Positions 24,403 through 35,287 are shown, numbered from the stretch's first letter. The stretch is 35,739 nt of DNA from an uncultured Adlercreutzia sp. (GCA_947426355.1 CANEDU010000007.1:1-35739); one strand, 5' to 3'. Numbers and translations are program-made. The notes: generated from the sequence alone by a model not told the origin.

Positions 24403-25482
24403 ATGACCGGCTTCGCCACCGCCTTCGGCGAGATCACCCTGGTGCTGTTTACCACGCTCGCACCCTCGGGAGCCGCGGCCTACCTCATCATGGGCCTGCC
24501 GGTGCTCACGGGCCGCGCGACGGGAGAGGACGCCCGGCGCCTGAACCGACTCACCTGCCTGCCGCTGCTCATCGCCATGGCGGGCCTCATTGCCTCGGCC
24601 ACGCACTTGGGAAACCCTGCGAACGCCCTGTACGTGTTCACGGGCGCGGGGCGCAGCCCGCTTTCAACCGAGGTGTGCTGCGCGGTAGCGTTTCTGGCTC
24701 TGGCCGGTATATTCTGGCTGTACTCCTTTGCCGAAGAGCCGCGCCGCTGGCTGCAGCGGGCGCTGCTTGGCGCCATTGACGTGTCCATCGTCGCCTTCGT
24801 GGCAGCTGTGGCCTATGCCTACGATGTGGACACCATCATCACCTGGAGCCTGCCGCTCGTGCCCGTGGCGCTGGTGCTGAACGCGTTGGTGGGAGGACCG
24901 CTCATTGCGCTTGTCGGCTTCGCAGCGGCCCGGTGGGCTGCGCCGTGGCGGCTGCTTGTGGCGCTGCCTGCCGTGGCGGCGGTGGCGAATGCGGCGGTGT
25001 ACGTCGTCCTCGGCGGCGATCTGGCGCCCCTGGCCAACGAGCTTGCGTCGGTGTCCCAGCTCGTGCCGGCTTACCCCGTTTGGGTGGCTGCCTTTGTCGT
25101 GTTGGTCTTCGCGGGAGTCGTCGTCGCCTGGCGCACGGGCCGCCGCACCGCAGGGATGAAAGAGGGAGCGGGCCACAAGAGGGCTGCTGCCTTCGCATCG
25201 GGCGCCCCGGCCGGCATCGGGGCTAGCTCCCCGGCCACCGCCAAGGCCACCGCCGCAGTCGGCACCGAAGCCACTGCCAAGGCCACCGCCGAAGTCGGCA
25301 CCGAAGTCACCGCTAAAGCCACCGCTAAAGCCACCGCCAAAGTCGCTGTCTGCTTTTCTCGTCGCGCTGGCCGCCGGGCCGTTGTTGGGTACTCCGCGGC
25401 CGCGTTGCTGGCCCTAGCCGGCATTTTCATCATGCGCTTCGTCTTCTACATGACGCATCTCACGCTGGGTTTGGGAGTGTAA
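24403..25482 (+). CDS. DmsC-like membrane anchor subunit with low-complexity loop
   Basis: Polytopic; MTGFATAFGEITLVLFTTLAPSGAAAYLIMG; operon position after TorD-like gene; TAKATA repeat before the last TM helix. Confidence 0.85.
   Translation: MTGFATAFGEITLVLFTTLAPSGAAAYLIMGLPVLTGRATGEDARRLNRLTCLPLLIAMAGLIASATHLGNPANALYVFTGAGRSPLSTEVCCAVAFLALAGIFWLYSFAEEPRRWLQRALLGAIDVSIVAFVAAVAYAYDVDTIITWSLPLVPVALVLNALVGGPLIALVGFAAARWAAPWRLLVALPAVAAVANAAVYVVLGGDLAPLANELASVSQLVPAYPVWVAAFVVLVFAGVVVAWRTGRRTAGMKEGAGHKRAAAFASGAPAGIGASSPATAKATAAVGTEATAKATAEVGTEVTAKATAKATAKVAVCFSRRAGRRAVVGYSAAALLALAGIFIMRFVFYMTHLTLGLGV
25234..25344 (+). repeat. Translated TAKATAxVGTE minisatellite (~36-bp unit) in the DmsC-like gene
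   Basis: ATAKATAAV/GTEATAKATAEV/GTEVTAKATAKATAKV. Confidence 0.85.
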
Positions 25483-27684: not shown

Positions 27685-28548
27685 ATGGAGCTGAAGGCGC
27701 GCGTCAAGAGAGAAGAGGCCCTGGCGTTCCTCGGTCATCGCGGGCAGGAGCTGGGCGATTTGCGCGAGCGGTTGAACCGGGCAGCGACTCTTTGCGAGGC
27801 GGAGCTCGTCCCGCGGGGCGTTTACTGCGTCGTGCCTGCCTGCGCGGCGCGGGAGGTGCTGCCTGGTGAAGATATTGCCTGCCATCTGGAAGATTGCGAC
27901 GAAGTGGCGCTGATGGCAGTGACGCTCGGCGCGCAGAGCGAGATGCTTTTGCGCCGTGAACAGGCGCTGAGCGCGACGGATGGTCTGTTGGTGGACGCGT
28001 GCGCCTCGTCACTCGTTGAGCAGGCGGCCGATGCCCTGAACGCGCTTATTGTCGAAGAGGTCGCAGCGCGCGGTCTTGCCGCTACGACGCGGTTCAGTCC
28101 CGGCTATGGCGATTTGCCCCTGAGCTGCCAGCCGGCGTTTCTCGCCGCCTGTGGTGCCGATCGCGCTCTGGGCATACGGGCTACCGCGGCCAACCTGCTC
28201 GTTCCCGCTAAATCCATCACCGCTGTCATCGGGCTTTATCCTCAAGCAAGCTCCGCTCGGGAGGGCGGACTAAAGCCCACCCCCACGGAAGGAACCTGGA
28301 GCGCGGATGCTGTCGTTGGGATCCCGGCCGGCATGGCCGCCGGAGTCTCTCCCGAGGTCATCGTTGGGACTCCCTCCTTTGCCGAAGTTTCCCCCGCAGG
28401 GGGCGATTTCAGCCGCCCCTCTGCCCCGACCGCGGATGATGTTCGAAAGGACGGCGCGCCCCGCGACGCGCGCTGCTCAACTTGCCCGCTCGCTGAGACG
28501 TGCGCCCTGCGCGCCCAAGGAAGGACCTGCCATGGCAACCCCGCGTAA
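27685..28548 (+). CDS. MetH reactivation-domain-like (vitamin B12-dependent methionine synthase activation) protein
   Basis: 'DEVALMAVTLGAQSEMLL', 'RFSPGYGDLPLSCQPAFLAACGADRALGIRATAANLLVPAKSITAVIGL'; Cys-rich C-term CSTCPLAETCALRAQGRTC; flanked by metF and metH. Confidence 0.85.
   Translation: MELKARVKREEALAFLGHRGQELGDLRERLNRAATLCEAELVPRGVYCVVPACAAREVLPGEDIACHLEDCDEVALMAVTLGAQSEMLLRREQALSATDGLLVDACASSLVEQAADALNALIVEEVAARGLAATTRFSPGYGDLPLSCQPAFLAACGADRALGIRATAANLLVPAKSITAVIGLYPQASSAREGGLKPTPTEGTWSADAVVGIPAGMAAGVSPEVIVGTPSFAEVSPAGGDFSRPSAPTADDVRKDGAPRDARCSTCPLAETCALRAQGRTCHGNPA
28258..28296 (+). repeat. Dispersed translated repeat, module A copy 1
   Basis: cgggagggcggactaaagcccacccccacggaaggaacc (REGGLKPTPTEGT). 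Confidence 0.75.
28390..28422 (+). repeat. Dispersed translated repeat, module B copy 1
   Basis: tcccccgcagggggcgatttcagccgcccctct (SPAGGDFSRPS). Confidence 0.8.
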
Positions 28549-31501
28549 GCTCACGGTAACCGACGCTCACCTGGCTGAGGCCCTGGCCGGCCGCGCCTAC
28601 CTGCTCTTCGACGGCGGCATGGGCACGCTCGTTCAGGCGGCGGGCCTGCATACGGTGCACGAGGTGCCCGACCTGCTGAATCTCACCCACCCCGACGAGA
28701 TTGCCGCTATCCAGCGACGCTACGTGGAAGCGGGCGCCGACTGTCTTACCACCAACACGTTCAGTGCGAATCGGCTGAAGCTCGCAGGCACGGGTGCCAC
28801 GGTGACCGAGGTGTACGCTGCAGCTGCCGCCAACGCGCGCGCGGCCGGCGCGCGCCTGGTCGCGGGCGATATTGGCCCCACGGGCTCGCTCCTCGAGCCG
28901 CTCGGTGCGCTCACGTTCGAAGAGGCCTACGATATCTTCGCAGAGCAGGCACGCGCTGCCGAGGCCGCGGGCTGCGACCTCATTGTTGTCGAAACCATGG
29001 CCGATTTGCTGGAAGCCAAAGCCGCTGTGCTTGCCGCTGCGGAAACCACCGCGCTGCCCGTCTTCGCCACGATGACGTTCGGCGAGGACGGCCGCACGTT
29101 CCTCGGCACGACGCCAGCCATTGCCGCCACGACGCTCTCGTCGCTTGGCGCTTCGGCAGTGGGCCTCAACTGCTCGCTGGGCCCCACCGAGCTGGCGCCG
29201 CTTGTGAGCGAGATGGCGCCCCATAATCGGGCTCTTATCATGGCCCAGCCCAATGCCGGATTGCCCCGTATCGAGGCGGGCGAGACGGTCTTCGATGTGG
29301 GTCCTCAGGACTTTGCCCAGGCCATGGAGGCAATTCTGGACGCCGGCGCCACGATTGTCGGCGGATGCTGCGGTACCACTCCCGACCATATCGCCGCGCT
29401 GCGCGCCGTTCTCGATCGGCGGATGAAGGTGTCCGCCGCGGAAGAAGCGAAAGAATCTCACGCAGGCACCCCCCGCGCTCCCCATGCGCGCTATCGCCCC
29501 GCTTTTACGGTGACCTCTGCCCAGCAGATGGTGGCGCTGCCGAGCGGCGAGGCGCGTATCGCGGTCATTGGCGAGCGCATCAACCCTACGGGGAAGAAGA
29601 AGCTGAAGGCCGCTCTGCAGGCCGGCGATGTGGACTATCTTGTAGCCGAGGCGGCCGCCCAGCAGCGAGCCGGCGCCGATATTCTAGATGTGAACGTCGG
29701 CGTGCCCGGTCTTGATGAGTCGGCGCTGCTTTCCCAGGTCACGCGCACGCTGCAGAGCACGGTGCCCCTGCCTTTGCAGTTGGATTCTTCCGACCCAGCA
29801 GCCATCGAGGCCGCCGCTCGCGCCTATGCGGGCCGGCCCATGGTGAACTCCGTGAACGGCAAAGCCGACAACCTTGCCGCCGTGTTGCCTGTGGTGGCGC
29901 GCTATGGCTGCACGGTCGTCGGCCTCACCTTGGACGAGGGCGGCATTCCCCCCACGGCTGAGGAGCGCCTGGCCATCGCTGAGCGCATCGTGGATGCCGC
30001 CGAAGCGCACGGCATTCCCCGCGAAGATGTGGCCATCGACTGCCTCGTTATGGCCGCTGCTACCAACCAGCGCGAGGTGCGCGAGATTCTGCGCGCCGTC
30101 GCACTGGTGAAGGAGCGCCTCGGCGTGCGCACGGTGCTCGGCGTGTCGAACGTGAGCTTCGGTCTGCCGGCGCGTCCGCTTGTGAACAGCACGTTTCTTG
30201 CTGCCGCCTTCGGCGCCGGTCTCGATATGCCCATTTTGAACCCGCTGAATGCCCGGTATCGCGACACGGTTGCCACCTTCCGCATCCTCAACGGCCAAGA
30301 CGTGGGCTGTCGCGCCTTTTTGGAAGACTGTGCCAATGCCCAGGACCCCTACGAAATCGCTGCTAGCGGAGCTTGTGTTGGCGGCGCCCCCATGGGCGGA
30401 AGCGCCGCCGCTCCCGGAAAAGTGGGCGAAAACGCCGCCGCTCCCGGGCAAACGGGCGGAAGCGTCGCCGTTCCCGGAAAAGTGGGCGAAAACGCCGCCG
30501 CTCCCGGGCAAACGGGCGGAAGCGCCGCCGTTCCCGGGCGCGTGGGCGGAAACGCCGCCGCTCCCGGACAAGCGCGTGGAAACGTGGGCGGAAACGCCGC
30601 CGTTCCCGGACAAATGGGCGGAAACGCCGACGCTTCCGGCCCCCTGGGCGAAGGCCTGGTCGCCTGCCCCATCCCGATTAGCGCTGCTTTCGCCGCCATT
30701 CCAGAGACGGTCGCCGCGCTGGCCGAATATGTGCTGGAAGGTCGCGGCGCGCCGGTGGCAGCTACGACTGAGGCGCTGCTGGCAACCTACGACGGGCTGG
30801 CCATCATCAACGATATCTTCGTCCCCATTCTCGATGTTGTTGGACAGAAATACGACGACGGGACGTTCTTCTTGCCCCAGCTCATGGCTTCGGCCGAAGC
30901 GGTGAAAGCGGGCTTCGACCTCATTCGCGACCACAATGCCGCAGCCTCTGCGTCTCCCGCGACCTCTCCTGCAGGGGGCGACTTCAGTCGCGCCTCGTCC
31001 TCGGGTAAGGGTGCCGCCTGGGAGGGCGAGCTACCGTCAGCCCCTACAGAGGGAAGCGCCGTTTCGATGGGCTCTTCCTCCGCAGGCGGCGATTCCGGTC
31101 GCCCTTCGCGCTCCAGTGCGGGCGAACGCTCCATCATCGTGGCGACGGTGCAGGGCGATATCCACGACATCGGCAAGAATATCGTGAAGATGCTCCTGGA
31201 AAACTACGGCTTTTCCGTTGTTGACCTGGGGCGCGACGTTGCCCCCGAGGCGGTCGTCGATGCCGCTCGCGAAAGTGGCGCGCGTCTCATTGGACTCTCG
31301 GCGCTCATGACCACCACGGTCGGCGCCATGGAGCGCACGATTAAGCTCGTGCATGAGCAGCTGCCCGGCGTGGCCGTCATGGTGGGTGGTGCTGTGATTA
31401 CCCAGGAGTTCGCCGACCAAATCAACGCCGATTACTACGCCAAGGACGCCGCCGCCTCCACCCGCATCGCCTCTGCCTTCTTCGAAGGCGATCCCTCCTG
31501 A
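28532..31501 (+). CDS. metH: Cobalamin-dependent methionine synthase (Hcy-, pterin- and B12-binding domains; reactivation domain encoded separately)
   Basis: 'LLFDGGMGTLVQAAG...NTFSANRLKL'; 'IVGGCCGTTPDHI'; 'IGERINPTGKKKLKAAL'; 'VATVQGDIHDIGKNIVKMLLENYGF'; start ATGGCAACCCCG after aaggacc. Confidence 0.95.
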   Translation: MATPRKLTVTDAHLAEALAGRAYLLFDGGMGTLVQAAGLHTVHEVPDLLNLTHPDEIAAIQRRYVEAGADCLTTNTFSANRLKLAGTGATVTEVYAAAAANARAAGARLVAGDIGPTGSLLEPLGALTFEEAYDIFAEQARAAEAAGCDLIVVETMADLLEAKAAVLAAAETTALPVFATMTFGEDGRTFLGTTPAIAATTLSSLGASAVGLNCSLGPTELAPLVSEMAPHNRALIMAQPNAGLPRIEAGETVFDVGPQDFAQAMEAILDAGATIVGGCCGTTPDHIAALRAVLDRRMKVSAAEEAKESHAGTPRAPHARYRPAFTVTSAQQMVALPSGEARIAVIGERINPTGKKKLKAALQAGDVDYLVAEAAAQQRAGADILDVNVGVPGLDESALLSQVTRTLQSTVPLPLQLDSSDPAAIEAAARAYAGRPMVNSVNGKADNLAAVLPVVARYGCTVVGLTLDEGGIPPTAEERLAIAERIVDAAEAHGIPREDVAIDCLVMAAATNQREVREILRAVALVKERLGVRTVLGVSNVSFGLPARPLVNSTFLAAAFGAGLDMPILNPLNARYRDTVATFRILNGQDVGCRAFLEDCANAQDPYEIAASGACVGGAPMGGSAAAPGKVGENAAAPGQTGGSVAVPGKVGENAAAPGQTGGSAAVPGRVGGNAAAPGQARGNVGGNAAVPGQMGGNADASGPLGEGLVACPIPISAAFAAIPETVAALAEYVLEGRGAPVAATTEALLATYDGLAIINDIFVPILDVVGQKYDDGTFFLPQLMASAEAVKAGFDLIRDHNAAASASPATSPAGGDFSRASSSGKGAAWEGELPSAPTEGSAVSMGSSSAGGDSGRPSRSSAGERSIIVATVQGDIHDIGKNIVKMLLENYGFSVVDLGRDVAPEAVVDAARESGARLIGLSALMTTTVGAMERTIKLVHEQLPGVAVMVGGAVITQEFADQINADYYAKDAAASTRIASAFFEGDPS
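30398..30649 (+). repeat. 30-bp minisatellite, 8 units, in metH between pterin and B12-cap domains
   Basis: GSAAAPGKVG/ENAAAPGQTG/GSVAVPGKVG/ENAAAPGQTG/GSAAVPGRVG/GNAAAPGQARGNVG/GNAAVPGQMG/GNADASGPLG. Confidence 0.95.
30965..30997 (+). repeat. Dispersed translated repeat, module B copy 2 (in metH)
   Basis: tctcctgcagggggcgacttcagtcgcgcctcg (SPAGGDFSRAS). Confidence 0.8.
31019..31057 (+). repeat. Dispersed translated repeat, module A copy 2 (in metH)
   Basis: tgggagggcgagctaccgtcagcccctacagagggaagc (WEGELPSAPTEGS). Confidence 0.75.
31076..31108 (+). repeat. Dispersed translated repeat, module B copy 3, diverged (in metH)
   Basis: tcctccgcaggcggcgattccggtcgcccttcg (SSAGGDSGRPS). Confidence 0.65.
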
Positions 31502-31572
31502 CGCAAGAACACCCTCGTCGCCCGACGCAGCGAGGCACGAGGTACACGGCCGTGCAGGACGCGGCACAGGCG

Positions 31573-31617
31573 GCGTTGCGCGGCATGGCGTTGCGCGGCA
31601 TGGCGTTGCGCGGCATG
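31573..31617 (+). repeat. 15-bp tandem repeat, 3 exact copies
   Basis: gcgttgcgcggcatg x3. Confidence 0.95.
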
Positions 31618-31856
31618 GCACGGCGCGGAGCGGCACCGTGCGGGATGGGGCATGCGAGACGTTGCGCGACACGGAACGAGGAGCCATGCGAGTTGGCACG
31701 CGGCGCGGTGCGAGGCACGAGATGGGAGCCATGCGGGACGCCACGTGGCACGGAATCACCACGCTGCGCGGCATCGCCTGACACTGCGCGGCATGTCAGG
31801 GAGAGCCTGGGCGCGAGGAACTTGGCCAAATATGCGGGATATGGACACTCCGAGCA

Positions 31857-31929: not shown

Positions 31930-32046
31930 GTCCATATCGGCCGTTTCTGGCCGATTTCCCCCGGCGCGCGTCCATATCGGCCGTTTCTGGCCGATTTCCC
32001 CCGGCGCGCGTCCATATCGGCCAAATTTGCCCAGTTTCGCCGCGCG
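31930..32046. repeat. 40-bp tandem repeat: two exact copies plus one diverged ~37-bp copy
   Basis: gtccatatcggccgtttctggccgatttcccccggcgcgc at 31930 and 31970; gtccatatcggccaaatttgcccagtttcgccgcgcg at 32010. Confidence 0.95.
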
Positions 32047-33526: not shown

Positions 33527-33602
33527 GGGGCCTTAGCTCAGCTGGGAGAGCGCATGGCTGGCAGCCATGAGGTCAGGGGTTCGATCCCCCTAGGCTCCAC
33601 CA
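33527..33602 (+). tRNA. tRNA-Ala(GGC), CCA encoded
   Basis: Cloverleaf: GGGGCCU/AGGCUCC acceptor with G3-U70, D-loop agctcagctgggagagc, anticodon loop CTGGCAG, T-loop ggttcgatcc, 3' ACCA. Confidence 0.97.
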
Positions 33603-33925: not shown

Positions 33926-35287
33926 ATGAACGTTACCTCGTTCAAGAGCTCTGCTCTGAAGAGCGTCGGAGCGGTTTCGCTCTGCGTCGCTCTCGGCGCT
34001 GGCCTGGTGGGCTGCGGCGGCGGCGAAGGCGGTGCCGGTGGCGCCGTGGCTGCCACGGTCAACGGCCAGGAAATCATGGAGCAGACGGTCACCGATTACG
34101 TGGCCGACTTCCGTGCCAACACGTCCCTCGAGACGGACGAGGCTTGGGGTGAGTGGATGGTTGCCAATGGCTACACCCCTCAGTCTGTCCGCGAGGAAGT
34201 TATCGACTACTATGTGAACCAGGACCTCTACGAGCAGGCTGCCAACGAGTATGGCGTTGCCGTCGAGCAGGCCGATGTGGATGCCGCTCTGGAGGAGACC
34301 AAGGCGATGTTCGAGTCCGAGGAGGCCTTCCAGGAGGCTCTCGAGGCGTCGAACATGACTGAGGAGTCTTACATCGAGGACGTTATTCGTCCGAATCTGC
34401 TGCAGACCAAGCTCGCCGAGGCCGTTTCTGCTGAGGAGTCCGGTGCCGAGGGCGAGGATGCCCAGCTGGCTCAGGCTCAGGCCATGGCTGATCAGTGGAA
34501 TGGCGCCAAGCGCTCCAGCCACATCCTGCTCCAGGCTGAGGAGGGCGAGGACGACGCTGCTCTGGCCGCCCGCGCTCAGGCCCTGCTCGACCAGATTAAC
34601 GCTGGTGAGATCAGCTTCGAGGATGCTGCCGCCCAGAACTCCACCGACACCGGCTCCGCTGCCAACGGTGGTGATGTGGGTTGGGACGCCCTGACCACCT
34701 TTGTGACCGAGTACCAGGATGCCCTGAACGGCCTCGAGAAGGACCAGATCGTTGCCGAGCCCGTGAAGAGCGAGTATGGCTACCACATCATCAAGGCGAC
34801 GGATGTCTTCGAGGTTCCCGAGGGTGGCATTACCTCTATGGATCAGGTGCCGGCCGAGTTCCAGGATTACCTGACCGCCATGGAGCAGAGCAACTCTTCG
34901 CAGAACTTCTCCACCTGGTTCCAGGAGTATCGTGACGCTGCCGATATCGTCATCAACGAGATGCCCGAGGGCCTGCCCTACGATATCGACCTGACCCCCT
35001 ACGAGGAGGCTGCCGCCGCTGCTGAGGGCACTGAGACCGAGCCTACGGGCGTCGAAGATCAGGCCGCGGCCGACGCCGCCGCTGACGCTGCTGCTGCCGA
35101 CCAGGCTGCTGCCGACGCCGAGGGCGACGCTGCCGCTGATGCTGCTGCCGAGGGCGACCAGGCTGCCGCCGATCAGGCCGCTGCCGATGCTGCCGCCGAC
35201 CAGACCGCTGCCGACCAGGCCGCTGCGGACGCCGCTGCCGACCAGGCTGCTGCGGACGCCGCTGAGGGCGAGGCTGCCCAGCAGTAA
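33926..35287 (+). CDS. Parvulin-type peptidyl-prolyl isomerase lipoprotein (PrsA/SurA-like)
   Basis: Lipobox-like LVGC; 'RSSHILLQAEEGEDDAALAARAQALLDQINAGEISFEDAAAQNSTDTGSAANGGDVGW...EPVKSEYGYHIIKATD'; Ala/Asp/Gln-rich tail. Confidence 0.9.
   Translation: MNVTSFKSSALKSVGAVSLCVALGAGLVGCGGGEGGAGGAVAATVNGQEIMEQTVTDYVADFRANTSLETDEAWGEWMVANGYTPQSVREEVIDYYVNQDLYEQAANEYGVAVEQADVDAALEETKAMFESEEAFQEALEASNMTEESYIEDVIRPNLLQTKLAEAVSAEESGAEGEDAQLAQAQAMADQWNGAKRSSHILLQAEEGEDDAALAARAQALLDQINAGEISFEDAAAQNSTDTGSAANGGDVGWDALTTFVTEYQDALNGLEKDQIVAEPVKSEYGYHIIKATDVFEVPEGGITSMDQVPAEFQDYLTAMEQSNSSQNFSTWFQEYRDAADIVINEMPEGLPYDIDLTPYEEAAAAAEGTETEPTGVEDQAAADAAADAAAADQAAADAEGDAAADAAAEGDQAAADQAAADAAADQTAADQAAADAAADQAAADAAEGEAAQQ

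Follow-up and report, generated by a model that had tools for sequence, protein, structure and literature searches.

In-frame copies of a probable GTAG-type REP family in linkers of methionine synthase and its activation protein in Adlercreutzia

We analysed a stretch of 35,739 nucleotides from an uncultured Adlercreutzia sp. (GCA_947426355.1, CANEDU010000007.1:1-35739), referred to here as the window. A preliminary description of this DNA had noticed two repeat modules, A and B, translated in the same frame inside both methionine synthase (MetH) and its activation partner. As set out below, the repeat is very probably a repetitive extragenic palindrome (REP), and it is called REP throughout. 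Bit scores are those of covariance model R1, which was built from 32 copies, all from outside the window. The features concerned are:

27685 to 28548, plus strand: gene of a MetH activation (AdoMet-binding) domain protein, a 287-aa ORF that is distinct from MetH and bears two REPs
28253 to 28458, plus strand: linker insert of the activation protein, about residues 190-258 with approximate boundaries, holding both REPs and absent from the closest ortholog, that of genome G001
28261 to 28292, minus strand: REP, module A, in the activation protein gene; 36.0 bits, GTGG variant of the GTAG foot, frame rev0, peptide EGGLKPTPTEG
28390 to 28421, plus strand: REP, module B, in the activation protein gene; 39.3 bits, GCAG foot, frame fwd0, peptide SPAGGDFSRPS
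28532 to 31501, plus strand: metH, B12-dependent methionine synthase; probable start at 28532 (MATPRKLTV) from ortholog alignment, the listed ORF running from 28307
30949 to 31122, plus strand: MetH linker from the B12 cap to the B12-binding domain, enlarged by a REP array as judged from an alignment of 12 orthologs
30965 to 30996, plus strand: REP, module B, in metH; 32.4 bits, peptide SPAGGDFSRAS
31022 to 31053, minus strand: REP, module A, diverged, in metH; 19.9 bits, peptide EGELPSAPTEG
31076 to 31107, plus strand: REP, module B, diverged, in metH; 23.4 bits, peptide SSAGGDSGRPS

MetH has the Pfam domains S-methyl_trans, Pterin_bind, B12-binding_2 and B12-binding and is without an activation domain. 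The protein encoded at 27685 had no match in Pfam or NCBIfam. Its AlphaFold model matches 1j6r, the MetH activation domain of T. maritima (E 8.8e-11), and the gene has a metF-like gene on one side and metH on the other. The structure match and this position indicate that the name given to the gene in the preliminary description is correct.

We found that modules A and B, which had been taken as separate, are one element in opposite orientations, since a side-by-side reading of genomic copies shows A to be the reverse complement of B. The unit is 28-32 nt long and has the form CC-GTAG-(8-bp stem)-TTCA-(8-bp stem)-TC; the alignment consensus is a 32-nt GTAG hairpin with CCGTAG ahead of the stem. 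The main stem versions of the own genome are GGGCGGAC/GTCCGCCC and GGGGCGAC/GTCGCCCC, while copies in Adlercreutzia mucosicola DSM 19490 (G006, 99% complete) have other stem tips, such as CC/GG and GC/GC, and those of G001 have CTTG or TTTA loops. Across the stem 96% of cells are paired, and both sides had changed in 30 cells compared with 8.6 in shuffles (0 of 500 shuffles as high). The GTAG foot is an unpaired tetranucleotide, read in the window as GCAG three times and as GTGG and GTAG once each. Many intergenic copies have perfect stems. An Rfam scan at the window repeats gave no family above the gathering score, the only match being a tRNA at 33527-33599. We consider it very likely that the repeats are a GTAG-tagged REP family of Adlercreutzia, whose members stand alone or form inverted dimers and arrays.

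When R1 was run on the 35.7 kb window, exactly five strong sites were obtained (39.3, 36.0, 32.4, 23.4 and 19.9 bits), the next best scoring 12.1. All five sites first noticed (A at 28258 and 31019; B at 28390, 30965 and 31076) are present, at 19.9-39.3 bits, and in the frames claimed for them. Since R1 comes from outside copies and the covariation is strong, the observation in the window lies far beyond chance. Consistent with this, when up to 3 mismatches were allowed a 23-mer taken from module B had 8 matches in the own genome and its reversed control had 0, and the region from 28255 used as a query led to more copies on other contigs. The two copies of the activation protein gene form a tail-to-tail dimer with a spacing of 129 nt, and the metH copies form a + - + array with spacings of 57 and 54 nt. 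An intergenic locus of A. mucosicola has the same + - + layout, with spacings of 57 and 49 nt.

Each B copy had been said to form a small hairpin. Folded as DNA, the copies at 28390 (-7.2 kcal/mol) and 30965 (-7.7 kcal/mol) do so with z about -2, but the copy at 31076 folds no better than shuffles, and the same is true of those at 28261 and 31022. The MetH array folded as a single strand gave nothing above shuffles. The window copies are partly decayed as hairpins, and because three of them fold no better than shuffles it is the family as a whole, and not every single copy, that carries the hairpin claim.

In both proteins the copies lie in linkers, as first described. The REP stretch of MetH, about residues 808-863, has very low model confidence and is predicted to be disordered. 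Residues 190-261 of the activation protein have pLDDT below 50 in the AlphaFold model, and its REP stretch is likewise probably disordered. Relatives lack the inserts in both genes. In the G001 activation ortholog, which is 79% identical over residues 1-194, the residues matching 194 and 261 of the query are adjacent. The cap/B12-binding linker of G001 metH is short and REP-free on inspection of the DNA, and the linkers of the other Adlercreutzia genomes scanned vary and hold no REP. Overall identity to the nearest relatives is about 75-83%, yet these are without the window inserts. G001 MetH has a REP pair of its own, in G001's own version, in the other linker (pterin-binding to cap), where it would be read as IPVGGDLGRPSSSK.

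That other linker is also occupied by repeats of different origin. In the window, 30393-30644 is a 30-bp coding minisatellite with a 10-aa unit in about 8 units, which relatives lack. In G011, a member of another genus, the same linker holds an unrelated 124-bp palindromic repeat in frame (L103, about 1348-1497; arms GTCATCCTGAGC...GAAGGATC) that is found at about 42 places in the G011 genome.

Sequence searches, together with extracted stretches around the matches, gave 23 REP copies in the own genome (80% complete), 83 in G001 and 92 in A. mucosicola. Six other Adlercreutzia genomes had few: A. muris DSM 29508 (G005) had 5 and the rest 0 or 1. Among 140 genomes of the family, REP matches were obtained in Adlercreutzia and in no other genus. 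REP pairs of the + - type are 56-57 nt apart in the own genome and mostly 55-61 nt apart in G001. Each REP-rich genome favours its own loop and stem versions, which suggests, from sequence comparison, that the REPs multiplied after the species split. We examined 17 clusters of the own genome, 53 of G001 and 51 of A. mucosicola and called 7, 11 and 5 of them, respectively, intragenic. The family is predominantly extragenic, the remaining clusters (10, 42 and 46) not being so called. Intragenic calls combined the ORF, coding score, Pfam, comparison with orthologs and inspection by eye, in place of a full gene caller. They replaced a classifier based on codon scores only, which linker cases had escaped.

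In three species we found 36 in-frame REP copies in 21 ORFs. Besides metH and its neighbour, the REP-bearing genes encode DnaX, ABC-F ATPases, PrmC, a TsaB-RimI-TsaD fusion, iron-sulphur proteins, RecQ, QueH, two U32 peptidases, a histidine kinase, a Ser/Thr kinase and, named from its sequence alone, a methylase-like protein. REPs interrupt or separate Pfam domains in RecQ, QueH, a U32 peptidase, the histidine kinase, PrmC, DnaX and ABC-F. With dimer members taken as separate, 18 copies are read in fwd0, 13 in rev0, 3 in fwd1 and 2 in rev1. Thus 31 of 36 use two of the four stop-free frames, and none of the 36 uses the two frames with TAG or TGA. The preferred readings are hydrophilic and rich in Gly, Pro and Ser (xVGGDFSRPS or EGGLKSAPTEG). 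Dimer spacing is divisible by three in 12 of 13 intragenic dimers compared with 25 of 52 others (p = 0.004). A test for selection on the encoded peptides, by synonymous against other changes, gave p = 0.07 for the own genome, and G001 and A. mucosicola showed no trend.

MetH, PrmC and TsaB-RimI-TsaD bear REPs in more than one species. In PrmC the REPs form a head-to-head pair (own genome) or a tail-to-tail pair (A. mucosicola), or there is a single copy (G001); TsaB-RimI-TsaD has REPs in two different linkers. The ABC-F proteins of the own genome and G001, whose REPs both precede the C-terminal domain, were considered as a further orthologous recurrence and left out as paralogs (26% identity). 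Two in-frame copies of G001 are diverged, one in TsaB-RimI-TsaD (21.6 bits; L273, about 2348-2379) and one in PrmC (31.9 bits; L264, 1960-1991). This suggests that old in-frame insertions decay below detection, in which case the coding REPs counted here are a minimum.

The preliminary description had proposed that a palindromic family invaded coding linkers in frame. Our data agree with this: the repeat is dispersed through the genome, mostly between genes with a minority in frame inside them, its frames are biased, and the window segments are not a linker conserved among orthologs. We therefore regard it as highly probable that a mobile GTAG-REP family is at work and that its intragenic survivors are those in frame in flexible linkers. 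Copy number, the dimers and presence or absence between genomes suggest that the REPs are mobile. The family would act as a miniature mobile element inserting anywhere in the genome, and copies that break genes would be lost by selection. The few intragenic copies to survive would be those that keep the frame and fall in a flexible linker between domains. The host ribosome would translate such a REP as a small hydrophilic Gly/Pro/Ser-rich stretch of the kind that linkers of multi-domain proteins may tolerate, and REP DNA is probably now made into protein. The inserts would be near-neutral.

A different possibility is that REPs are kept in genes for a function, as a protein-binding DNA site, an mRNA hairpin, a pause site between domains or a helpful longer linker. 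Recurrence in MetH, PrmC and TsaB-RimI-TsaD across species would fit, as would the roles that REPs have elsewhere with DNA gyrase, IHF and mRNA (in the reviews given by PMC3733652 and PMC6006769). We consider it unlikely, as the stems in the window are partly decayed and most relatives' linkers are REP-free. That the other MetH linker is filled by the minisatellite and by the unrelated G011 palindrome suggests that linkers are permissive, rather than that the REP has a function. Purely local spread from one gene to the other, by conversion as had also been suggested or by duplication, would account for copies that are alike in two genes that adjoin. It is very improbable and indeed unneeded, since REPs occur at many unrelated loci in the own genome and the sister species, and the two layouts differ (tail-to-tail at 129 nt against + - + at 57/54 nt). 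That the segments are ordinary Ala/Pro/Gly-rich linkers, alike by chance or codon bias, has almost no probability left: all of them do lie in low-complexity linkers, and linker length varies in all orthologs, but R1, made from copies elsewhere, gives no strong site in the window besides these five, reversed controls had no match in the own genome, and the dispersed intergenic copies, with their perfect stems and covariation, refute it.

GTAG REPs inside genes were reported in 2013 in Opitutus terrae, Thauera, Stenotrophomonas maltophilia, Xanthomonas and others, and that work already proposed that linkers tolerate them (Di Nocera et al., PMC3733652). As described there, GTAG REPs resemble ours in having a GTAG (or GYAG/GTRG) foot, a variable stem of 6-9 bp with compensating changes and a short loop. 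They occur as single and grouped units and as head-to-head dimers mostly 20-100 bp apart, with a minority inside ORFs where dimers or groups encode 20-30 aa. The Adlercreutzia case thus joins a known phenomenon. Relative to the account in PMC3733652 it differs in that no RAYT gene was found, an odd feature, and it adds the frame bias, the spacing bias and the repeated hits on orthologous linkers with empty-site relatives. The main text of PMC3733652 does not mention Coriobacteria or Actinobacteria, and our search of the open-access literature gave no report of such REPs for Adlercreutzia or Coriobacteria.

REPINs (Bertels and Rainey 2011, PMC3116915) are similar in being inverted REP pairs with a preferred spacing that appear to act as a unit, but they are defined as extragenic and come with RAYT, whereas Adlercreutzia has many single copies and yielded no RAYT. 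In subclass 2.4 of the tnpA-REP genes (PMC6006769) REPs are likewise inserted between protein domains with the frame intact, although the host gene there is the REP's own transposase gene. The Rickettsia palindromic elements, to which the repeats had been likened, are the classic precedent (Ogata et al. 2000/2002, in PMC10969869). The analogy holds for in-frame insertion in unrelated conserved genes, but as summarised in PMC10969869 those elements are specific to Rickettsia and of greater length, about 150 bp in the first reports. The 32-nt GTAG hairpin of Adlercreutzia appears to work like such an element and is not one.

RAYT is the usual mover of GTAG REPs. In nine Adlercreutzia genomes, including the 92-copy A. 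mucosicola genome, we obtained no match to RAYT (NF047646) over the cut-off, and PF01797 had no match in the own genome (80% complete), A. mucosicola and five other Adlercreutzia genomes. The Y1_Tnp frames of G001 and G003, 151-200 aa long, fall below the RAYT cut-off. The mobilising enzyme is thus missing or unrecognised. RAYT may have been lost, its gene may belong to the part of the own genome that is missing (no explanation for the 99%-complete A. mucosicola), or another enzyme may act. It is a doubtful though conceivable extension that the REPs multiply to this day with no RAYT at all, by means of an enzyme so far not tied to REPs, and that in-frame landings have become a regular source of new protein linkers in this lineage.

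We also considered an IS200/IS605-type element of G001 that might carry REPs as its ends. This was rejected, as only one of three compared copies has a REP at its edge and that copy is inserted into a REP dimer. The element in question (L152, G001:C1:1177700-1182700, about 2113-2991) lies directly 3' of a REP and splits the dimer. Another copy lies 3' of a second, different hairpin that carries a T run, which would fit an element targeting hairpins followed by T.

If our preferred reading of mobile REPs surviving in linkers is right, the locus offers a recent and clean example, backed by comparison of filled and empty sites in sister species, of how selfish DNA turns into part of a protein. 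The same genes are struck repeatedly, and the frame and spacing biases would let the selective filter be seen at work. Coding REPs are thereby extended to an actinobacterial genus of the gut that is present in culture collections, and this raises the testable question of what spreads GTAG REPs where RAYT was not found.

The window contains several further tandem arrays. Two are intergenic and 3' of metH, one at 31572-31628 with a 15-bp unit (GGCGTTGCGCGGCAT, 3.2 times) and one at 31930-32022 with an exact 40-bp unit (2.3 times) that has the near-palindrome GGCCGTTTCTGGCC inside. Others lie at 25234-25342 and 35063-35277 and consist of 36/12-bp units and Ala-Asp-rich units.
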